From: Thiothrix sp.
GTDB lineage: Bacteria; Pseudomonadota; Gammaproteobacteria; Thiotrichales; Thiotrichaceae
Length of the DNA: 64,000 nt
Assembly (NCBI RefSeq): GCF_028714775.1
Contig: NZ_JAQTLS010000003.1
Location: 62,001-126,000 of the forward strand
Direction: 5' to 3'
Notes under the pieces: generated by a model
The model's input: the letters and a program-made list of their open reading frames with translations, nothing else
What the model was told of the DNA's origin: nothing
Databases searched by the model: none
Made by a program: the position numbers and the translations under genes
Part shown: positions 47,668 through 60,242 of the stretch, one piece after another
How the letters are laid out: every line of letters starts with the position of its first letter
Numbering within the stretch: position 1 is the first letter of the stretch

Positions 47668-50365
47668 TTTTCAATTCACTCCCGACCAATAAAGCCGGGA
47701 GAATGTTGCGCTGAGCTGCAAACCGGCTGTCAAGCCGTGGTTTCAATCCACTCCCGACCAATAAAGCCGGGAGAATTTATCGTGCAAATGACCGTGGAAC
47801 AACACACCGTTTGTTTCAATCCACTCCCGACCAATAAAGCCGGGAGAATGCCACGGAAACCGGAAGCAAGCTGCAAAGTGCCGGGTTTCAATCCACTCCC
47901 GACTAATAAAGCCGGGAGAATCGCGTGCTATCCGTAAATCACGCATTTTCAGCGGGTTTCAATCCACTCCCGACTAATAAAGCCGGGAGAATCAAATAAA
48001 GACAGCATCGCCCCCTCTTCACTCCCGTTTCAATCCACTCCCGACTAATAAAGCCGGGAGAATGAAGGGCAGCATCACCTACATGCAAGCCGCCCAAGGT
48101 TTCAATCCACTCCCGACTAATAAAGCCGGGAGAATCGGTTGCGGGTAGCGGCGTTGTCCACGCGCTCCACGTTTCAATCCACTCCCGACTAATAAAGCCG
48201 GGAGAATATCCAACTACCCTTGTTGACGAGCGTTCCCATCACCGGTTTCAATCCACTCCCGACTAATAAAGCCGGGAGAATCGCGCCGTCACCAACCCCT
48301 ACGCTGACCAACTGGCGTTTCAATCCACTCCCGACTAATAAAGCCGGGAGAATAATGTCCTCGCTGATCCCGCCGCTACTGATGCCGGTTTCAATCCACT
48401 CCCGACTAATAAAGCCGGGAGAATGAGTAACAATATTCGCTGGAGGTGTGCTGTACGGGTTTCAATCCACTCCCGACTAATAAAGCCGGGAGAATTTGTC
48501 GCTGCCATTGATAATGTCCCGCGAGGCGATGTTTCAATCCACTCCCGACTAATAAAGCCGGGAGAATCTGGGGATTCTGGGACTGGGAGGCGAATCTCGG
48601 TGTTTCAATCCACTCCCGACTAATAAAGCCGGGAGAATGCCTTGAGGTTACGCGGTCTGTGTGGTATCAGCGGGGGTTTCAATCCACTCCCGACTAATAA
48701 AGCCGGGAGAATTATTTATTACAAGCTTTTCATTATCAAGAGAAAATGTTTCAATCCACTCCCGACTAATAAAGCCGGGAGAATAGTTGGACAAACTTAC
48801 GTTGACTTTGCAGCAGGCTGTTTCAATCCACTCCCGACTAATAAAGCCGGGAGAATAGTACAAACGCGGCATACGAGACGCGCTGCTCAATGTTTCAATC
48901 CACTCCCGACTAATAAAGCCGGGAGAATTGACGATACCCGGCTCTTTGATGCGTAGACGCAGGTTTCAATCCACTCCCGACTAATAAAGCCGGGAGAATT
49001 GACGATACCCGGCTCTTTGATGCGTAGACGCAGGTTTCAATCCACTCCCGACTAATAAAGCCGGGAGAATATTTCTGCGGCCTGCGCATTGCGGGTCATA
49101 CTGGCGTTTCAATCCACTCCCGACTAATAAAGCCGGGAGAATACTTATATCTCATAAGCGTATGTTTTTCTATGTCGGTTTCAATCCACTCCCGACTAAT
49201 AAAGCCGGGAGAATGCTGTTTTCATGATTTCGATGTCGGCTTTTCCGCTGTTTCAATCCACTCCCGACTAATAAAGCCGGGAGAATGATAGTGGTCATTT
49301 GCAAGCTGCGCCGTTTGATGTTTCAATCCACTCCCGACTAATAAAGCCGGGAGAATCAAGTGTCATGCGCCGATTTGACAGTGAGCGGGCTGTTTCAATC
49401 CACTCCCGACTAATAAAGCCGGGAGAATTTCGATGGTGGCTTTTATCTGCCCAAGTGTGATTTGTTTCAATCCACTCCCGACTAATAAAGCCGGGAGAAT
49501 GTTTTGTCACATCACAAACTAGCCACATCGAGCGCGTTTCAATCCACTCCCGACTAATAAAGCCGGGAGAATGAGTTCTTGTGTTTGGATGCGGTACACG
49601 AGACGGGTTTCAATCCACTCCCGACTAATAAAGCCGGGAGAATGCCATACAGCCTGATTCGCAGAAAATCGGCAAGATGTTTCAATCCACTCCCGACTAA
49701 TAAAGCCGGGAGAATCTCAAGCAGTACGATTGGCTGCTTGAGCAGGTTATTGTTTCAATCCACTCCCGACTAATAAAGCCGGGAGAATCAAATTCAAGAC
49801 CGCATTCAAACGACCAGTTTTTGTTTCAATCCACTCCCGACTAATAAAGCCGGGAGAATGCATGGTGGCCTACCGCCGCAACCCGCAAGTGTTGTTTCAA
49901 TCCACTCCCGACTAATAAAGCCGGGAGAATCTATATAAAGCATAATTATATAATTATATTATACAGTTTCAATCCACTCCCGACTAATAAAGCCGGGAGA
50001 ATGTGGATAGATGCACATTGCCTTGCAGGTACTTTTTGTTTCAATCCACTCCCGACTAATAAAGCCGGGAGAATCCCATATCACCGCAATACCCCGGAGT
50101 GGCACGAGTGGTTTCAATCCACTCCCGACTAATAAAGCCGGGAGAATCCTGTCACGAAAATCATCATAGCTATAATTGGCAGCAGTTTCAATCCACTCCC
50201 GACTAATAAAGCCGGGAGAATTCTGAGGTTATTTATGGCTGTTTTTGTGGATGATATGTTTCAATCCACTCCCGACTAATAAAGCCGGGAGAATCCTACT
50301 CAGCGAGGCAGGACACGGGACAACAAACGTTTCAATCCACTCCCGACTAATAAAGCCGGGAGAAT
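47668..50365 (-). CRISPR. Type I-C CRISPR array, 38 repeats and 37 spacers
   Basis: The 37-nt repeat reads GTTTCAATCCAC at its plus-strand left end and ends CCGGGAGAAT, with a CTCCCG/CGGGAG hairpin. In crRNA sense (minus strand) it ends with the type I-C handle TGGATTGAAAC. Spacers are 33-37 nt. The copies at 47668, 47740 and 47813 have ACC for ACT in the loop, and the 47668 copy has two further changes, so the low-coordinate end is the old, leader-distal end; the leader is at 50366-50680. Spacers 48929-48962 and 49000-49033 are identical. Transcription should run leftward, as for the cas genes. Confidence 0.98.
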
Positions 50366-52016: not shown

Positions 52017-52651
52017 GCTTCCCCGTCGTCCTCCGCATCATACAAGGTATCGTGCAAACGGCGGATTCGCGCCCGATTGCCCGTCAAATCTGGCTGGCAG
52101 CTATCCTGCAACGAACACTCCTTGCACAAAGCACGCTCATCCACTGGCGACGGCATCTGCCCCGACTCCAGCAACGCCCGCACCTTCGCAATCAAACCAA
52201 TGGTGAATTCACGCAACTCTGGCGTAATCGGTACAACGCGGCGGCGACGGCTTTTATGGTGGAAAATCGCACCTTCCGGCACTGCCTTGCCCGTCATTTC
52301 CTCCAAACACAACGCCTGCCCGACCAATTGCACATCATCGTGTGTCTTCTTTTGGCGCGAACCCTGCTTGTATTCGATGGGGTAAGGCGTGCCGTCATCA
52401 AGAAACTCCACTGCGTCCGCCCTACCCGTCAGCCCATACTGCTCGCTGTACAAAGGCAAAGAACGCTCCACCCGCACCCCATATTCTGTGCCACTTTCGC
52501 CACTATCCACCCGTTCATGCGCCAGATTGCCGCGTACCGTATGCACATTGTCAGTAAACGTCTGTTCCTGATGGATCAGCGCACACTGGCGCGGGCAATA
52601 GCTGTAGTGTTGCAGCGCGGAGAGCATGATGGGGAGGAGTGGTTCAGACAT
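52013..52651 (-). CDS. cas4: CRISPR adaptation nuclease Cas4
   Basis: 212 residues from the ATG at 52651 (MSEPLLPIMLSALQ). The frame extends upstream into the PIN gene, but this start gives the standard Cas4 N-terminus. Fe-S cysteines are in YSYCPRQC and CKECSLQDSC; RecB-type residues are in GRADAVEF and IEYKQG. It trims prespacers and selects the PAM. Its ATG overlaps the stop of the PIN toxin by 8 nt, so the inserted toxin gene is translationally linked to cas4. Confidence 0.93.
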   Translation of the reverse strand: MSEPLLPIMLSALQHYSYCPRQCALIHQEQTFTDNVHTVRGNLAHERVDSGESGTEYGVRVERSLPLYSEQYGLTGRADAVEFLDDGTPYPIEYKQGSRQKKTHDDVQLVGQALCLEEMTGKAVPEGAIFHHKSRRRRVVPITPELREFTIGLIAKVRALLESGQMPSPVDERALCKECSLQDSCQPDLTGNRARIRRLHDTLYDAEDDGEA

Positions 52652-53075
52652 TGGGTAGTAACAGGTTCTCAAAGGGTTGACGGCTTTTCCAGCGATAACA
52701 ATCGAAATCGCGCTGGTCAGTGGAGAGAACTCGACCATGCCCCAAGGCTTCAGCCAATAACACCATCGAAGCATCTGCCAAATCCATTGGCAAATCGGCA
52801 TACTTTTCCATCAATATGGCGGCATGTTGCAATTGCTCGACTTCCAATGGAAATATCACAAAATACCCCTGCGACCCCATATCCAGAAATTGTCGAACCG
52901 CCTGCATCCCGCGACGGCTCAACAACATATAACAAGCCTCGGTAATCACAGGCCACGTTGTCACCAAAGTTTGACGACAACCCGCCAAATACGTGGTTGC
53001 TTGCGTGTGAAAAGCATCATCCTTGTTGAGTAAGGCGACCCAGAATCCCGTATCAGCGATGACCGAATTTTTCAT
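52644..53075 (-). CDS. VapC-like PIN toxin embedded in the cas operon
   Basis: 143 residues. PIN acidic residues: Asp in IADTGFWVALL, Glu in ITEACYML, Asp in DLADASMV and Asp in LSTDQRDF. It is predicted to be a Mg-dependent RNase. The start overlaps the RHH antitoxin by 23 nt and the stop overlaps cas4 by 8 nt, so it sits in a tightly coupled cas7-[antitoxin-toxin]-cas4 order. PIN genes are not standard type I-C components. Confidence 0.9.
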   Translation of the reverse strand: MKNSVIADTGFWVALLNKDDAFHTQATTYLAGCRQTLVTTWPVITEACYMLLSRRGMQAVRQFLDMGSQGYFVIFPLEVEQLQHAAILMEKYADLPMDLADASMVLLAEALGHGRVLSTDQRDFDCYRWKSRQPFENLLLPNV

Positions 53076-53322
53076 CCAGATACCCTTTCACGTACTTTTT
53101 GTAATTCACAGAACTATCTGCCGGAGCAGACATAATGCCGCCCAGCATCTGCAACAGTTTCTGATTTTTCGCTAACGCTTCGTCCTCATCTTGACGGAGT
53201 TTGGTTGCAAAATAGCTATCCAACGCCTCTTTCAAAATATCAGAACGGTTCTTCCGCTCGCGCTGCTGCACAAGCTGAAACTTGCGCTCGTAGCTATCAT
53301 CCAGCCTTGCATTAATTCTCAT
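53053..53322 (-). CDS. Ribbon-helix-helix antitoxin
   Basis: 89 residues. The MRINARLDDSYERKFQLV start is an RHH strand-helix pattern with RKNRSDILKEALDSYF as the second helix, which fits DNA-binding antitoxins. The C-terminal half would bind the PIN toxin. GAGGA lies before the ATG at 53322. Upstream is a perfect palindrome (53337-53352), probably its operator. Confidence 0.85.
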   Translation of the reverse strand: MRINARLDDSYERKFQLVQQRERKNRSDILKEALDSYFATKLRQDEDEALAKNQKLLQMLGGIMSAPADSSVNYKKYVKGYLDEKFGHR

Positions 53323-53352: not shown

Positions 53353-54243
53353 TTAAGAGTGTACCAGCTTCAACAATGTCACGCCATTTGGCAAATCAGC
53401 CTCATCCACCGTGACGGCATAATCAGCAAAACGACGCGGCACACTGTTTGTGTCTTTCAACTCCGCCTTGATACGCTCGAACAAGCTAAACGCCTGCGCA
53501 TTACCCAACTTGCCTTCATGCTTGAACACATACAGCCCACGGGTCGCCATTTCACCACGCGCTGCGGAACGGTCATGCTCGAACATATTGCCCAATGCTT
53601 GCCACAACAATTCCAGATCACCCTCTGAAAAGCCTGTTTGATCGGCTAAATGTGCAGAAACGAAACCGTGCGCAACATACAAACCATAGGGCACGGTGAA
53701 TTTGCGCCCCATCGTGCGGTTGTCACCATCCTGCTTTTCCGCTTCTTTCTCAGTCGCCACAGCCATACGGGTAATCGAATGCTCACTCGCAATCACCGGA
53801 TCAACCGAACGGGCAAACGTAATCTGTACCGGCCCACGTACCTGCCCACAGTTCACACCCGTTGACATAACCGCGCCGAAAGTACGCACGTCAAAGAAGT
53901 TGTGGCACATCCACTGCCGTGCTTCTTCTACCTTGTCGCCGCCTTTACGTTTTTTATCGTCGCCCGCCAACAGTTCAGCGCCGCCGGGAATGGCTTGATA
54001 AGCGCGTTCGTGCTGCTTGTTCAGAATGGCTTTTTCCTTGACGTAGATTTCATAAGGCGGCTGTTCTTCTTTCAACAACCCAATGAAATTGCGGACTTTG
54101 CGTTTCAGGCTAACATCCGTCACTAAGCCTTGCCCGGTTTCCGCATCGACACGCGGCAAATTGCCTGCATCTGGGTCGCCATTAGGGTTGCCATCTTTCA
54201 CATCAAACAGCAGTACGAAGTCATAACGGTTTTGCAGGCTCAT
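53353..54243 (-). CDS. cas7: Cascade backbone protein Cas7c (Csd2)
   Basis: 296 residues beginning [27 protein letters not shown], the Csd2 signature. Further conserved parts are [14 protein letters not shown] and [11 protein letters not shown]. Several copies bind the guide part of crRNA. The start overlaps cas8c (ATGA). Confidence 0.96.
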
Positions 54244-55991
54244 AACAATTCTCCTTGTGCCCCGGTTTCAGATTCAGGTTGGGTAGTTTCGGTTTTAGTG
54301 TGTTTCTTGAAAAAATCTTGGCGCTGATGGTAGTAACCAATCGCAAAACGCCCTTGATCAGCTAATGGCAAATGGGCAGGGAAATCGACAATGCCACCCA
54401 TAATCTCGCCCAACAGTTTTTCAAAATTGCTGACTCGCCCCTTGTTATCCAGCTTGCTCAAATGATGGTTTTTCAATTTCAGCAGTGTGGAAAACACCGT
54501 GACAGGTGTAGCAGAAGCCGCCCCGTAATAACGGTCACGGATGGTGGCATTGATACCGGGTTGGGCTTCTTCCTGTATTTTTTCCAGCACCGCAAACAGA
54601 CGACCTAAACGGTAGCCCGTATTTGAATTTTCAAGATCAAGTGACACGGCAAGATTCTCCGTTGGATTAAGTCGGTTCAAATAGGCTTTGATCAAAGCCG
54701 CCCGTGGGTAAGTGACTTCCTGTTCTGCACGGATACGCCGCACAGCCGAAGCCAATAATGTTTGAGGGTAAGGCAAACCTTCCAGAATACAGCGGATCAC
54801 ATCGCCTGCCAGATTTGGCGGAACGTTTTCGGTTTTGCCCAGCAATGCAGTTGAACGTAACAGCAACCACAGCGGTAGGAATTCTGCATCACGCTCGCTA
54901 TGCTCAATCCGCAAATACTCAAAATGATCAACAATCCGCTGGCTGATTTCCCGCACGGTTCCCACATGCCAAAAACGGACGCTGATTCGCGCCGCATTGG
55001 GTGCAAGTCCCAGAATAAAAAAGCGGGTTGTTTCGCCCAAAGCAGGATTGCGTCCGTATTCCTGCACAGCCTTGTACAAGGCTTTCACTGCATTAGTGTT
55101 ACGATCAGGATCATCTTTATTGTTATCCGCCGCACCCCACAGCGCGGTGAAATCATCGACCAGCGTATGTTCTTGCTCAGCCCAGAAAACGGTAGAAGCA
55201 TCGCCTACCTGCATCCGTTGCGTAGAATCCTTACTCAGCAAGTGATTCAACGCCGTGGTATAGGCAAACGCCGCCTCTTTACTGACTGGCGCATTGAAAC
55301 TCTGACTCTTACCGTAAGAAGTGAACGCATCAAGGTTAAAGGAAATGATGTTCGCCCCAGAACTTTGCGCCCCCCACACACCTTTGATGGAGGGATGCAG
55401 GCGTTCAATCTCGGCTTGTTCACCCGTCAACAGACAAGTGGCTTTAGCGTTATCGTCACCGCATGGACTCATCAATGCCGCTTGGACTTTGCGGCTTTGA
55501 CAAACCAAATGCAGTTGTCCTTGCAAACGAAACGTCAGATTAGGGTTGGTGACAGCAATCTCTTCCCATTGCGGTTGCTGCTGTAAAACTTCGGTATCCA
55601 GATTTTCCAGAAAAGCTAATACCGCAGCGATGCCTTCATCCTGTTCTGAAATAGCTAATTGGCGGATACGTTCGGCAAAAGCGGCTTGCTGTTCCTTTAC
55701 CCGCTCTGGCTTGCCTTTGGTATCAATACCCAACACATATTCAGCGTTATCCCACAGCAGGTTGGCAGCAACACCGGAGGTTTTCTTTACACCTTGCGGC
55801 ACACGTTCTGATTTTGCCCGCTTCTTTTTGCCATCACCTGTGCGGGTATCTTCAATCTGTGCCAATTTGCCATCAGCGGTAACTTCCAGAATGAAAGGGA
55901 TTTCTTTGTACTCAAATCCGGCAGGAGCTAAAGCAGAATCCGCGTTGGCTGATTTGCGTTGGTAGTAATCGTAGAGTGCTTGCAGAATCAT
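54240..55991 (-). CDS. cas8c: Cascade large subunit Cas8c (Csd1)
   Basis: 583 residues, typical for Csd1. Start [13 protein letters not shown]; recognisable segments include [17 protein letters not shown] and [11 protein letters not shown]. It recognises the PAM (TTC in known I-C systems) and opens target DNA; I-C systems also make a small subunit from an internal start of this gene, which I did not locate. It overlaps cas5c and cas7 by 4 nt each. Confidence 0.95.
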
Positions 55992-56650
55992 CCGCGTATC
56001 TCCTCGCTATCCCATGCGGGAACGTGAACCACACCATCTTGCATTTTCGCTTGAAAGAATCGTGGCATAGGGTTAGCGGTATCGACAAAATCCATGTCAT
56101 ACAACATCCAACCTAATTCGCGTGTTTCAGGTAAAGGCTGGGCGAGAGCAGTGTCAGCGTCAACCAAACGGAAATCACAGGAAAATTCGCGTGCCCCCAA
56201 ATAAGGCTGATTGAAACACTGCCCTTTGCTGGCGCGGCGTTTGAACATTTCAGCAAACTTGACCGGATTGTTCTCCGGGTTGTTATTCAGCATTTCAAAC
56301 TCAGCGTGAAGCCGGTAGCGCACATCCCGTAAAAACAAACCTGCCCGTTGTTGGCGGTCTTCCTCCACATACATGCCTAGGTTGCCTTTACCTTGCTTCA
56401 TCGCTGACCTGACCGCCCCAGCAGGTACAACCCCTGAGACTTCGTTGCGGCGCAAGTTAATCCAGCGAATCGGATTCAGCACCTCAATTTTGCGGATATG
56501 CCAACGAATCGCAGGCTTCCACAAAATCGACTCGAATACGGCACGGGCGGCAGAAGGAGTGATGACATCGTAAGATACACGTTCCACCTTCATTTCCGGT
56601 CGAGTGAAGCAGGCGAAACCACCTGAAACCTCCAAACAAAAGCTCTTCAT
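55988..56650 (-). CDS. cas5c: crRNA-processing Cascade subunit Cas5c (Cas5d)
   Basis: 220 residues from the ATG at 56650 (MKSFCLEVSGGFACFTRPEM); an upstream TTG in frame would add five residues. In type I-C, Cas5 rather than Cas6 cuts pre-crRNA at the 3' base of the hairpin, leaving an 11-nt handle. The G-rich tract of the family is present in the first strand. It is the first gene after the crRNA-like element at 56703-56774. Confidence 0.95.
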   Translation of the reverse strand: MKSFCLEVSGGFACFTRPEMKVERVSYDVITPSAARAVFESILWKPAIRWHIRKIEVLNPIRWINLRRNEVSGVVPAGAVRSAMKQGKGNLGMYVEEDRQQRAGLFLRDVRYRLHAEFEMLNNNPENNPVKFAEMFKRRASKGQCFNQPYLGAREFSCDFRLVDADTALAQPLPETRELGWMLYDMDFVDTANPMPRFFQAKMQDGVVHVPAWDSEEIRG

Positions 56651-56702
56651 TACCGTTCTCGCCAAAATACTAAGTTTGTGAAATGGGCGCGGAGAACCCG
56701 CG

Positions 56703-56774
56703 CCCGTCTATCCATTCCAACAAGTTTCAAACATTGTGTTTCAATCCACACTTGCTATCAAAACAAGTGATGAG
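56703..56774 (-). ncRNA. crRNA-like RNA from a degenerate repeat, predicted cas-regulating guide
   Basis: A solitary 37-nt degenerate repeat (56738-56774). Its last 11 nt, TGGATTGAAAC, equal the handle of the array repeats. Its stem, CACTTG/CAAGTG (9-nt loop), differs from the array stem CTCCCG/CGGGAG on both sides, so pairing is kept. The following 35 nt (56737-56703) form the guide, beginning ACAATGTTTGAAACT. The predicted start site (about 56770) lies right at the stem. A GC stem of 8 bp (56685-56705) follows and may stand in for a second repeat or slow transcription. The region is the 5' leader of cas5c. Confidence 0.75.
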
Positions 56775-56776
56775 CT

Positions 56777-56805
56777 ATCCTAGCATTAGTTTCAAATATT
56801 GTGAA
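56777..56805 (-). promoter_or_regulatory. cas5c operon promoter overlapping a self-target site
   Basis: On the minus strand TTCACA (56800-56805) and TAGGAT (56777-56782) are 17 nt apart, with TGC before the -10 (extended -10). The TTC at 56803-56805 is followed by ACAATATTTGAAACT, which equals the guide of the adjacent RNA except at position 6. Cascade bound here would cover -35, -10 and the start site. Confidence 0.75.
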
Positions 56806-56813
56806 GTAAAGTT

Positions 56814-56999
56814 ATGGATTGGAAAGTCATAAAAGAGATTAGGTTACTCCTCACCTCCTTACCAGAACGCTTGGTATGGGGAATTTTGGTGTCGATAGTT
56901 GTCATCCTACTAACTCTTATCACCAAACTAACTCCTCCGGCGCAAGCTGTAGTGGATCAACCAACAGACCAAGTTTCCCATCATACAGGCCGGGGGTAG
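56814..56999 (+). CDS. Small hydrophobic ORF divergent from cas5c
   Basis: 61 residues on the plus strand with one membrane segment (LVWGILVSIVVILLTLI). The first 35 codons lie in the gap between cas5c and cas3; the last 27 are antisense to the cas3 3' end. A possible promoter is TTGCTA (56752-56757), 18 nt, TATCCT (56776-56781), lying within the degenerate repeat and self-target. The ribosome site is weak. It may be a small membrane toxin or not a gene at all. Confidence 0.35.
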   Translation: MDWKVIKEIRLLLTSLPERLVWGILVSIVVILLTLITKLTPPAQAVVDQPTDQVSHHTGRG

Positions 57000-59184
57000 T
57001 TTGCTCGTAAATACCGGGCAAATTGGCAAGCTCACGAATATCGCCTGACTGCAACAGACGCTTTTTCACCTGTTCACGCACAGTTACGGTGTAGCGTTGC
57101 AGCTTGCGCATCAGGTTACGTTTCGGCCCGATAAATTTCAGTTGTTCAATCAGTTTTGCGCCTTCGCCGTATGTGACCAACACCGCCGACCCATCATCGT
57201 CAATCAGTCGAAAACGCTGGGCAGCCGTGCGGAACTGGATTTTCAATTCACGCGCATTCTGAGCAAGTAAATCGACAATGCCATGCTTATCCCGTGATTC
57301 TGCCCGTGCATAGAAATGTTCAAAGTAAATCTGAAAGTGCGAATGATGTAACGGCGCTTGAGAAAAACTTGGCAACGAAAGCAAAGAGCGGCTCACGGTT
57401 ACAGACCGCCCCAAATGTCCCGGCAATTTGGCATTGAGTGGCGGCACGAACACAACCACCCTACCCTTATCGGCTTGTTTACCTTCACGATTACAACGCC
57501 CCGCTGCTTGTGCAATCGAATCCAGCCCCGCTAACGCTCGGTAAACCACAGGAAAATCCACATCCACGCCAGCTTCAATCAATTGCGTGCTGACCACACG
57601 CAGCACAGGTTCACCATCTTGCAAACGCTGACGAATTTCTTGCAACTTCTCAGAACGATGTTCCCCACACAAATTCGTCGTCAGATAGTAAGTTTCAGGA
57701 GGCAACAAGCGACACAGTTCCGCAGCCTGCTTCTTGGTATTGACGATAACGAGTACAGAATCCAGTTCCGCAATTTCCTCCGCTAGCGCTTCCCACGAAC
57801 GTTCTGTCACCAAATCCTTTGGCAGTTCCACATTCACGCGCTCTAACGCAGTAAACAACGCTTCGGGATCAGGCATTATTTCCTTGATCTGATCTGCACC
57901 AAACCCTTTCACCACCGCTGTTCCGAAGGAGTCTTGATAGGTATGCAAGGCAGGTTGGGTTGCAGTGGAAAGCACAAACGTCACACCGTAGTGTTCCACC
58001 AAGGCTTTCATCACGCCCAGAATCGGGTTCAGGAATTCCGGTGGCAATAATTGCGCTTCATCCAACACAATGACGCTGTTTGCCAGATTGTGCAGCTTGC
58101 GGCAACGGCTGGTGTGGCTGGCAAACAGTGATTCAAACAACTGCACATTGGTGGTAACAATAATCGGCGCATCCCAGTTTTCCGTCGCTAATCGGCTTTG
58201 CGCATCTTCCCTATCGGGGTCAAGGTTGCTGTGATGTTCCACCACGCAATTACCGAAGATATGGCGGTAAATATTAGCGGTTTGTTCGATGATACTCGTG
58301 TAAGGGATGGCATAGATGATGCGCCGTTTGCCGTGCTGGATAGCATGTTCCAACGCAAAGGCCATACCAGATAATGTTTTGCCACCACCCGTTGGTACGG
58401 TCAGGGAAAAGATACCCGGTGGTTTTGCTGCTGCTTCCTGACAATCACGCAGGATTTGCGCCCGCAAACGGTTAACGGGTGTATCTGCCGCTTTCGCTGA
58501 AAATCCCATCATGTGTTGGGTGAAACGGGTAAGCAATTGGCTCAGCTCTGGATATTGCCCACGCAAATCCTGCTTTTCTGGCTGCATGAAAGCTTCAGCA
58601 TCCAGAAAATCCGCATCCACAAGGCAAGAAAACAGCATCCTTATCCACAAAGCAGCGTTATCAATGCCACCCACTGGCGCAGAGGTGGGCATTTTTGTTT
58701 GCAGAATATCTTCTGGAATGGGGACTTGCAGCGCTTTATCCAGATGAACCGCGTCTTGCAAAATTTCTTCCAACGACCGCCCATTACCTGTGTCTTCCCT
58801 GACCCAATCAGGCAAACCAGAGTGATGACCTGCAATCAGGTAAGCAAGAATTTTCCCAAACAGCTTCTTTGGATTCTGATCTTGATCAATAGCATACAAA
58901 GCACCAGCAGCGGAGTGGTTAACTTTACCGGGAGAGTGATCAGTTTCAATATGGGCATTGAGTGCGATATAGCCTGTTTTATCGCTGATATAGCGCTGAA
59001 ATTCAGGGTTGTATTTACCGAGATCATGCCAAATTCCAGCAACATGCGCCCAATCCTTTCCAAACAACACCGCATAGCCTGCTGCTAACTTGGCAACCTC
59101 GTGTAAATGCTCATCCAGCCAATGCTCAATCGGCTGTTCCTGTTCATCAAAACGCACATGCGCTATCGGGCGGGCTTTATTCAC
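56920..59184 (-). CDS. cas3: CRISPR nuclease-helicase Cas3
   Basis: 754 residues, GTG start. N-terminal HD nuclease (His-Asp in GIWHDLGKYN; GHHSGLPDW), then an SF2 helicase with Walker A VPTGGGKT, VLDEAQLLPPEF (DEAQ box) and the QLIEAGVDVDFP and QAAGRCNREG motifs. It degrades DNA once Cascade has bound a full target. It is 52 nt behind the WYL regulator and separated by 269 nt from cas5c, so it belongs to a different transcription unit from the Cascade genes. Confidence 0.96.
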   Translation of the reverse strand: MNKARPIAHVRFDEQEQPIEHWLDEHLHEVAKLAAGYAVLFGKDWAHVAGIWHDLGKYNPEFQRYISDKTGYIALNAHIETDHSPGKVNHSAAGALYAIDQDQNPKKLFGKILAYLIAGHHSGLPDWVREDTGNGRSLEEILQDAVHLDKALQVPIPEDILQTKMPTSAPVGGIDNAALWIRMLFSCLVDADFLDAEAFMQPEKQDLRGQYPELSQLLTRFTQHMMGFSAKAADTPVNRLRAQILRDCQEAAAKPPGIFSLTVPTGGGKTLSGMAFALEHAIQHGKRRIIYAIPYTSIIEQTANIYRHIFGNCVVEHHSNLDPDREDAQSRLATENWDAPIIVTTNVQLFESLFASHTSRCRKLHNLANSVIVLDEAQLLPPEFLNPILGVMKALVEHYGVTFVLSTATQPALHTYQDSFGTAVVKGFGADQIKEIMPDPEALFTALERVNVELPKDLVTERSWEALAEEIAELDSVLVIVNTKKQAAELCRLLPPETYYLTTNLCGEHRSEKLQEIRQRLQDGEPVLRVVSTQLIEAGVDVDFPVVYRALAGLDSIAQAAGRCNREGKQADKGRVVVFVPPLNAKLPGHLGRSVTVSRSLLSLPSFSQAPLHHSHFQIYFEHFYARAESRDKHGIVDLLAQNARELKIQFRTAAQRFRLIDDDGSAVLVTYGEGAKLIEQLKFIGPKRNLMRKLQRYTVTVREQVKKRLLQSGDIRELANLPGIYEQTTPGLYDGKLGLLVDPLQLAPEELVW

Positions 59185-59236: not shown

Positions 59237-60220
59237 TCAAACCGTGACAAGGCAACCGTAATTCCCCAACATTTTTTGCAGTTTTTCACATACCGCTGCC
59301 CGCAATTCCGGCGGTTCCAACACCGTTACACCATCGCCAAACCGCAGGATTTCCCCAATTAGTTCGGTGGCGTGGCTGTATGGGATGCGTAACACATACG
59401 CCCCGTCCTTCCAGCCCGATTCTTGTGCATTGTGCCATGTCACGCCTTCCACCCAACGTGCTGCTTCTGGCGTAAAGCGCAATACTGCCACTGCTGCAAC
59501 CCGTCCAGAAAAGATGCCAAACGTAGAAAAAAACACGTCATCCAATTCCGTTTTCGGCACTGACAGGCTATCAACTTCAAGTTGTTCGATGTTACTGATA
59601 CGGTCAAGTGAATAGGGATGTAGGGTATTTTCGCGGTGGCAATACGCCCCCAAATACCAGTTGTCACGGTAATAAATCAGCAGTTGCGGCGACAGCGTGC
59701 GCAGCAGGCATTCATCGTTGGAACGCGCATGGTAAGAAACACGCAATTGCTTACGTTGCAAACACGCGCTGGCAATGATTTGGAAGTTGCTGTACTGGTG
59801 GTCGCGGCGGTTATAGGGTAACAGACGAATGTAATTCCCCAGCGTTTCAGTGCTGTTCAATCCGGTAGTTTTACTGATAATTTCACGTAGGCGGGTTTCA
59901 ATCGGGGCAATTTCATCATGCAGCAATTCCGGGTCGAAGTTCCCCAATAGTTGTTGCATCGCCAATAGGCCGTAAATTTCTTGGTCATTCAACCAAAAAC
60001 CGGGCAGTGAATACGCCCCCTTGTCTTTGCAGTAATGCCAACCATTGCGGAGGCGGTCATATTCGATGGGCGCATTGAAACGGTTTTGCATGGTGATGAT
60101 CACCCGCCGCACCGTGCTTTCCGAACAATGCAGCGCTTCCATAAGCCGTTTAATGGAAATGGGCGACCGTGCCGAGCCCAGCAGTTTATCGAGACGGTAA
60201 ATTTTGTCGATATTTTCCAT
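59237..60220 (-). CDS. WYL-domain transcriptional regulator
   Basis: 327 residues from the ATG at 60220 (MENIDKIYRLDKLL). The winged HTH (SIKRLMEALHCSESTVRRVI) is N-terminal; the WYL region includes YYRDNWYLGAYCHRENTLHPYSLDRI. WYL proteins often control CRISPR or defence genes and may bind nucleic acid ligands. It is in line with cas3 and probably regulates this locus. The start is set by a TATAAT box 6 nt upstream, which leaves no leader. Confidence 0.9.
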   Translation of the reverse strand: MENIDKIYRLDKLLGSARSPISIKRLMEALHCSESTVRRVIITMQNRFNAPIEYDRLRNGWHYCKDKGAYSLPGFWLNDQEIYGLLAMQQLLGNFDPELLHDEIAPIETRLREIISKTTGLNSTETLGNYIRLLPYNRRDHQYSNFQIIASACLQRKQLRVSYHARSNDECLLRTLSPQLLIYYRDNWYLGAYCHRENTLHPYSLDRISNIEQLEVDSLSVPKTELDDVFFSTFGIFSGRVAAVAVLRFTPEAARWVEGVTWHNAQESGWKDGAYVLRIPYSHATELIGEILRFGDGVTVLEPPELRAAVCEKLQKMLGNYGCLVTV

Positions 60221-60226
60221 CCCCGG

Positions 60227-60232
60227 ATTATA
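60227..60232 (-). promoter_or_regulatory. -10 box for a leaderless WYL-cas3 transcript
   Basis: Perfect TATAAT on the minus strand, ending 6 nt before the ATG at 60220, so transcription should start at or next to the start codon. No good -35 is visible, which would suit activator control. Confidence 0.5.
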
Positions 60233-60242
60233 TCGCAAAACT

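Follow-up and report, generated by a model that had tools for sequence, protein, structure and literature searches.

A probable CRISPR-regulated toxin–antitoxin module between cas3 and cas5c of a Thiothrix type I-C locus

What does a lone degenerate CRISPR repeat do between cas3 and cas5c? We asked this of a Thiothrix locus in a window of 64,000 nucleotides (the whole stretch of DNA that was analyzed), where the minus strand carries, in order, a WYL regulator, cas3, a gap of ~270 nt, cas5c, cas8c, cas7c, an RHH/PIN pair, cas4, cas1, cas2 and a 38-repeat array. Family calls assign cas4 to type I-C, as they do the four genes listed below, and those four together with the matching array identify the system as type I-C. 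The genes that we take to be cas1 and cas2 were named from their position and size.

56920..59184, minus strand: cas3 (I-C family call)
55988..56650, minus strand: cas5c (I-C family call; the ATG at 56650 was chosen by eye, and the mechanical reading frame runs from TTG at 56665)
54240..55991, minus strand: cas8c (I-C family call)
53353..54243, minus strand: cas7c (I-C family call)
47668..50365, minus strand: CRISPR array of the same system, 38 repeats, with the minus strand as crRNA strand

Within the cas operon, between cas7c and cas4, a VapBC-like pair (52644–53322, minus strand) encodes an RHH-like protein of 89 aa, whose RHH match lies under the Pfam cut-off, and a PIN-domain protein of 143 aa. 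An HTH-WYL-WCX regulator (59237–60238, minus strand) sits immediately upstream of cas3 and is a possible second layer of cas control. In the array, two adjacent repeat-spacer units (48892–49033) are identical across 71 nt and represent a duplicated spacer.

The cas3–cas5c gap contains a miniature CRISPR element and a site that matches its guide.

56749..56769, minus strand: psi-repeat 1, hairpin CACTTG-N9-CAAGTG, which ends exactly 11 nt before the guide; expected Cas5c processing site
56738..56748, minus strand: 11-nt 5′ handle TGGATTGAAAC, identical to the handle of the array repeats
56706..56737, minus strand: psi-spacer (guide), whose first 15 nt ACAATGTTTGAAACT pair with the target except at position 6
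56685..56705, minus strand: GC-rich 3′ hairpin GGGCGCGGGTTCTCCGCGCCC, about where a second repeat is expected
56788..56805, minus strand: PAM TTC (56805–56803) and target ACAATATTTGAAACT (56802–56788), identified by sequence match to the guide

An initial annotation of this DNA had described a lone degenerate repeat with the exact 11-nt handle, and we find it in place between cas3 and cas5c. Both arms of its hairpin have changed, as that annotation had also observed, reading CACTTG/CAAGTG here versus CTCCCG/CGGGAG in the array repeats (crRNA strand). The 3′ hairpin, which it had not included, is probably repeat 2 reduced to a hairpin and possibly a terminator-like stop. The window therefore holds a crRNA-like gene with degenerate repeats, a hallmark of CRISPR-regulated toxin–antitoxin (CreTA) modules, with the second repeat present as a hairpin only.

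Guide and target are identical at 14 of 15 positions, with the single difference at position 6, and are mismatched at positions 16 and 17. The match, its TTC and its spacing of ~65 nt had been claimed before and are confirmed, the spacing at 65 nt; the window sequence also supports the proposed crRNA-like RNA with a TTC PAM, an 11-nt handle and limited pairing. In 20,000 guide shuffles, no TTC-flanked match within the surrounding 700 nt scored 14/15, and a score of 13 occurred once. A search of the 4.3-Mb genome for TTC plus target, with positions 6 and 12 free and at most two mismatches, returned only this target and the guide itself. The match in the window is far beyond chance, and genome-wide uniqueness of the pattern and the shuffled-guide controls exclude a chance match or array debris. 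A Racr-like anti-CRISPR RNA (a solitary phage repeat) was likewise excluded, as the element lies among cas genes and its guide has a local target.

We surveyed 194 loci with a Cas5c match, 190 of them with distinct upstream sequence, drawn from samples at genus, family, class and phylum level, from two further families, from three plasmids and from the 80 best matches (out of at least 589) in a species-genome collection; the order sample comprised the same 63 genomes as the family sample. The loci were chosen by Cas5c match, not by a per-locus subtype call, and include seven that match Cas5c distantly, four with less than 300 nt upstream, and one (L182) that is half of a split gene. In that genome (G1039, L182/L183), the two pieces of cas5c lie ~1.1 kb apart, perhaps through an insertion.

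The first scan looked for handles upstream of cas5c, on its strand, in the 190 loci and scored all guide positions with any PAM. All-position scoring replaced a scoring that skipped every sixth position, because the latter would favor the claimed pattern. Twenty-one handles were found, 15 of them with a nearby site of at least 12/17 (12 at one locus, L039; 13 at four; at least 14 at ten), and TTC was present at 14 of these; the remaining six handles score 10–11, none with TTC. At L038, the PAM position reads TTT, not TTC. Shuffled guides reached at least 12 in 12.5% of cases, 13 in 1.9%, and 14 in 0 of 630. A second scan, of both strands and requiring TTC with 13/17, added 10 loci whose mini-CRISPR lies on the opposite strand; here 23 of 223 non-array handles reached this score versus 3 of 892 shuffled guides. 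By these fixed criteria, 25 of the 194 loci carry a degenerate mini-CRISPR with a nearby match to its guide.

Four weaker loci, added after the mini-protein search described below, bring the total to 29: L169 (11/17), L127 (12, with GTT as PAM), L023 (12) and L081 (which needs a gap). Their handles are clear, and on score alone their matches are not beyond chance. A scan without the handle requirement gave 28 matches against 12 expected from shuffles and was too noisy to be used alone; inverted matches without a handle at L118 and L020 were not counted, and the L120 match from the both-strand scan was dropped as lying within a regular array. The both-strand scan found no self-matching mini-CRISPR within 4 kb on either side in T. 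fructosivorans (L027).

Of the 9 close cas5c loci within the genus, 6 lack the module, as do the 2 distant ones, and in all of these cas3 and cas5c are 16–21 nt apart. The module is dispensable, since most congeners do without it at this spacing, and it seems to have been gained or lost as a cassette. In the six congeners L007–L010, L012 and L013, cas3 and cas5c are separated by just 18–21 nt.

In type I Cascade, every sixth base of the pairing is flipped out, and the initial annotation had expected that no pairing would be demanded there. The survey upholds this: among 27 gap-free pairs, 16 have a mismatch at position 6 and 19 at position 12, versus 9 of 324 for the other twelve positions of 1–14 (Fisher 2.5e-27). 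The 15 pairs of the first scan alone give 20 of 30 mismatched at 6 and 12 versus 4 of 180 elsewhere in 1–14 (Fisher 6e-17). From position 15 the match fades, with mismatches in 9/27, 11/27 and 15/27 at positions 15, 16 and 17. At positions 1–5 and 7–11, where CreTA guides pair, every base matches in the window and five mismatches occur over the 27 pairs. As judged from these alignments, the pattern fits the prediction for pairing inside type I Cascade.

The 27 pairs, out of 29, leave out L169 (mismatches at 3, 6, 11, 12, 14 and 15) and L081 (a one-base gap at position 6 and a mismatch at 12), and include L023 and L127 though these were picked after the mini-protein search; without the latter two, the counts are 14/25 at position 6, 17/25 at position 12 and 8/300 elsewhere in 1–14. 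L019 is an exception to the pattern, with mismatches at 3, 13 and 16. By eye, the L081 target seemingly has no base opposite guide position 6 (TTAGA-GGGTTAGTTAG versus TTAGAAGGGTTTGTTAG), as if the flipped-out base could be absent.

Congeners show how such pairs evolve: L011 has kept the target, with the mismatch now at position 12, and in L014 both guide and target differ, with mismatches at 6, 12, 14 and 15. Guide sequences are mostly unrelated between genera and the pairing is retained, so guide and target have changed together. Co-variation of the two in relatives had been proposed as a check, and its outcome is strongly positive (25 loci by fixed criteria, with shuffled-guide controls). 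These results weigh against one alternative, a decaying, functionless orphan repeat whose spacer was accidentally taken from the neighborhood. The repeat is indeed degenerate and alone, but its hairpin arms have changed together, pairing survives the turnover of guides between genera, and mismatches within positions 1–14 are nearly confined to 6 and 12; decay would not spare the pairing positions alone. We consider this reading extremely improbable.

The RNA structure can be followed across the 29 loci. A Cas5c cut is expected to leave 11 nt before the guide, and the first hairpin ends exactly there in 16, at 8, 9 or 13 nt in 11, and was not found in two (L142 and L159). A strong 3′ hairpin starts at guide position 21–34 in 27 of 29, with ΔG ≤ −12 in 27 of 29 versus 11% of shuffles. 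At L121 and L122, a recognizable second repeat stands in the place of the 3′ hairpin.

The gap also holds a reading frame, on the strand opposite the guide RNA, that was absent from the initial annotation.

56814..56999, plus strand: mini-protein gene, 61 codons, beginning MDWKVIKEIRLLLTSLPERLVWGILVSIVVILLTLITK; hydrophobic, with the first ~38 codons conserved

The frame begins 8 nt past the PAM and points away from cas5c, and its 3′ part is antisense to the end of cas3. Hydropathy predicts one membrane-type hydrophobic segment (17-residue mean 3.0), and no clear Shine-Dalgarno sequence was seen in the region upstream. An HMM built from nine ORFs of this kind and refined by iteration over the six-frame ORFs of the 194 loci gave 17 matches (E ≤ 2.6e-7), with a consensus of roughly M[DE][WY]xxx[RK]E[LI]RLLxxxLPxxRF[YW] plus the hydrophobic segment and a conserved core of ~35–47 aa. 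Three pairs of relatives have pN/pS of 0.087/0.56 (L006/L011), 0.027/0.40 (L050/L116) and 0.099/0.87 (L019/L017), which indicates purifying selection on the mini-protein. Of 369 genomes sampled from the class, with up to 20 candidates scored in each, five gave a single HMM match, every one beside cas5c; all five belonged to the seed set, and the informative part is that no matches lay elsewhere. In 359 genomes of another family, two matches were found, both adjoining cas5c.

Database searches placed the mini-protein in no known family. For the window protein and two relatives, Pfam gave no match up to E 1, KilA-N included, a domain that characterizes CrePA toxins, and NCBIfam gave chance-level matches only (E 0.036 and 0.049, far short of cut-offs). 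PHROGs returned only a weak, chance-level match for one relative (E 0.015), and PADLOC gave no match for either the window protein or the one relative searched. The mini-protein is most likely a membrane toxin that would penalize loss of immunity. It could instead be a membrane partner of immunity, a sensor or anti-phage effector released when anti-CRISPRs block Cascade, in a CrePA-like abortive defense. Such a partner would follow the same logic, and CrePA is a case of it with a KilA-N protein (PMC12737573), but no KilA-N, Pfam, NCBIfam or PADLOC match comes near a cut-off, and sequence cannot tell such a protein from an addiction toxin. We think this partner role unlikely.

The toxin assignment draws on linkage. 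At all 17 HMM-match loci, the mini-protein adjoins the handle of a diverging mini-CRISPR, and the target lies between the two, clearly at 13 loci and in weak or irregular form at four. A blind case, L209, came from a genome unused before: an HMM match (E 4.6e-7) between cas3 and cas5c homologues is accompanied by guide CAAATCTGACTAGCTGC and target TTC-CAAATATGTCTTGCTGC, which match at 14/17 with mismatches at 6, 9 and 12. With L209, the arrangement is diverging in 18 of 18, and the target is clear in 14 and weak or irregular in four. Small hydrophobic ORFs starting within 110 nt of the target occur at 10 of the 15 first-scan loci versus 1.2 expected; L017 fails this test only through the ORF length limit or for want of an ATG/GTG in range, and is still an HMM match.

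Orientation varies relative to cas5c. The mini-protein gene runs towards cas3 in six of the 17 loci (L006, L011, L014, L017, L019 and L088) and towards cas5c in the other 11; with L209, 12 of 18 face cas5c, their guide RNA pointing away from cas5c to cas3. Because the unit is kept and its orientation to cas5c varies, it is the mini-protein, and not the cas operon, that forms the guide's conserved partner.

How the target could control transcription in the window depends on two predicted promoters.

56777..56805, minus strand: TTCACA-17-TAGGAT, a predicted promoter of the extended −10 type (TG ahead of the −10), directed into the guide RNA and cas5c; consensus match
56752..56781, plus strand: weak candidate mini-protein promoter TTGCTA-18-TATCCT, score 7.5, not found by the stricter scan

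Two promoter-like sites occur in 501 nt, with 0.7 expected, and the first promoter is one of them; by this consensus match the target sits between the −35 and −10 of that promoter. The earlier placement of the target inside a promoter reading into cas5c thus gains support from the prediction at 56805–56777. The −10 of the second candidate overlaps the opposing −10 TAGGAT; as the two promoters share this region, one bound Cascade would cover both. For the window genome, the model is least secure here, in the weak consensus of the mini-protein promoter candidate. The gaps at L014 and L088 contain symmetric −10 sequences, which suggest bidirectional promoters common to mini-protein and guide RNA.

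A target in the cas operon promoter is a trait of CreR, and it is predicted in the window and not constant among relatives. Could the RNA act purely as a CreR, letting Cascade repress its own cas5c operon, with the mini-ORF a bystander? The better-scoring promoter around the target reads into cas5c, and at L038 and L039, which have no mini-protein match, the target adjoins or overlaps the hairpin of the first repeat. RNA-guided cas autorepression in other CRISPR types, which the initial annotation had invoked, is indeed on record, as CreR in I-B, I-E and V-A, according to PMC13131331. CreR (Liu 2023) resembles our element in being a crRNA-like RNA that partly matches a cas promoter (reviews PMC13131331 and PMC12737573), but in these sources it is generally uncoupled from a toxin, a rule that PMC12737573 treats as general, not absolute, whereas here the mini-protein at 56814–56999 and its relatives are coupled to the RNA. 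A bystander ORF is also at odds with the guide RNA pointing away from cas5c at 12 of 18 mini-protein loci, with purifying selection, and with all HMM matches in two genome samples adjoining cas5c (5/5 and 2/2). We judge a purely CreR role rather unlikely. The proposal that Cascade silences its own cas operon stands in part: the target does lie in the predicted cas5c promoter of the window, but across relatives the constant partner of the guide is the mini-protein.

The mini-protein is present at only 17 of the 29 mini-CRISPR loci. At six others (L121, L122, L142, L149, L186 and L191), small hydrophobic ORFs unrelated to it lie downstream of the target and upstream of the mini-CRISPR, that of L122 being under the hydropathy cut-off. 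No small hydrophobic ORF was found near the target at L038, L039, L173 and L159; at L068, one lies on the guide-RNA strand only, over the target, and L198 is borderline. Given these loci without a convincing small ORF, plain regulators probably exist too, and L038 and L039 look like plain autorepressors. In L038, a Nitrospira MAG, a cysteine-rich small ORF (translated by eye) lies between mini-CRISPR and cas5c, at about −252 to −50.

Taken together, the module is probably a type I-C CRISPR-regulated toxin–antitoxin system of the CreTA kind, a reading we uphold, and with unchanged odds after four of the 17 mini-protein loci were downgraded from matching to weak on re-examination, because it is borne by the linkage and by the 14 clear loci. 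Constraint on guide and target, linkage, coding selection and flipped orientation are established at the level of sequence. For transcription, Cascade binding, repression and toxicity, we infer the following course. The degenerate mini-CRISPR would be transcribed from a promoter in the cas3–cas5c gap, and Cas5c would cut its hairpin to leave the 11-nt handle. The resulting crRNA-like RNA would load into Cascade, which would bind the TTC-flanked target through ~15 nt of pairing, ignoring positions 6 and 12. Sitting just upstream of the mini-protein gene, Cascade would keep it off without Cas3 cleavage. Loss of Cascade or its block by an anti-CRISPR would then allow the mini-protein to be made and to harm the membrane, so that cells losing immunity are penalized. 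In the window, the divergent promoters appear to overlap, so CreR-like cas autorepression is likely too: through this one binding event, guide RNA and cas5c operon would be repressed as well, as feedback.

More tentatively, and with slightly more doubt than belief, we propose a joint model of a type I-C addiction module in many genera whose toxin is a dedicated, conserved membrane-protein family of ~40 aa, and in which, in some genomes including that of the window, Cascade occupies a single site on a shared bidirectional promoter and so keeps the toxin, the guide RNA and the cas operon down together. If this is true, an anti-CRISPR would simultaneously raise Cas proteins and free the toxin.

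Among tested cases, the nearest is the type I-E CreTA of Citrobacter rodentium with its translated toxin, which has the same layout. As PMC12055562 describes it, that system, like ours, has a small translated ORF in the cas3/casA gap, a crRNA-like CreA upstream on the opposite strand, and a partly matching, PAM-flanked target near the toxin promoter. It differs in being type I-E with an ATG PAM, where ours is type I-C with TTC, and in its 96-bp ORF, reported without homologues, where our mini-protein forms a family in several genera. The haloarchaeal I-B CreTA (PMC8501985, PMC9458426) shares the degenerate repeats and the pairing of guide nucleotides 1–5 and 7–11 with a TTC-flanked site upstream of the toxin, and the mismatch pattern of the window family agrees with this published I-B CreA pairing (PMC8501985). 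Its toxin is an RNA with a mini-ORF of 4–6 codons that sequesters a rare tRNA, in contrast to the conserved mini-protein here. In place of a small RNA with 4–6 rare codons, our module has a conserved 38-codon protein segment under purifying selection, which makes it CreTA-like and nearest to the translated I-E toxin. CrePA (Shu 2025), as described in PMC12737573, likewise has a protein toxin repressed by Cascade and a crRNA-like RNA, as proposed here, but its toxin is a KilA-N protein acting on FtsZ, a domain without counterpart in the mini-protein. Among the literature matches listed, in which CreR (2023) and CrePA (2025) were covered through reviews, there is no type I-C module of this kind, and the term I-C is absent from the accessible text of PMC9458426, PMC8501985, PMC10097628 and PMC12737573.

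Poor sequence conservation has made CRISPR-regulated toxins difficult to find, as stated for CreTA (PMC8501985). Here, a homologous protein family that an HMM can recognize goes together with a guide RNA and a single CRISPR subtype in several genera. A review asks whether such modules exist in other CRISPR types with other cellular targets (PMC12737573), and the type I-C module supplies concrete candidates. The guide–target pairs are, in addition, a natural record of the positions that type I-C Cascade seems to need for repression, not cutting.
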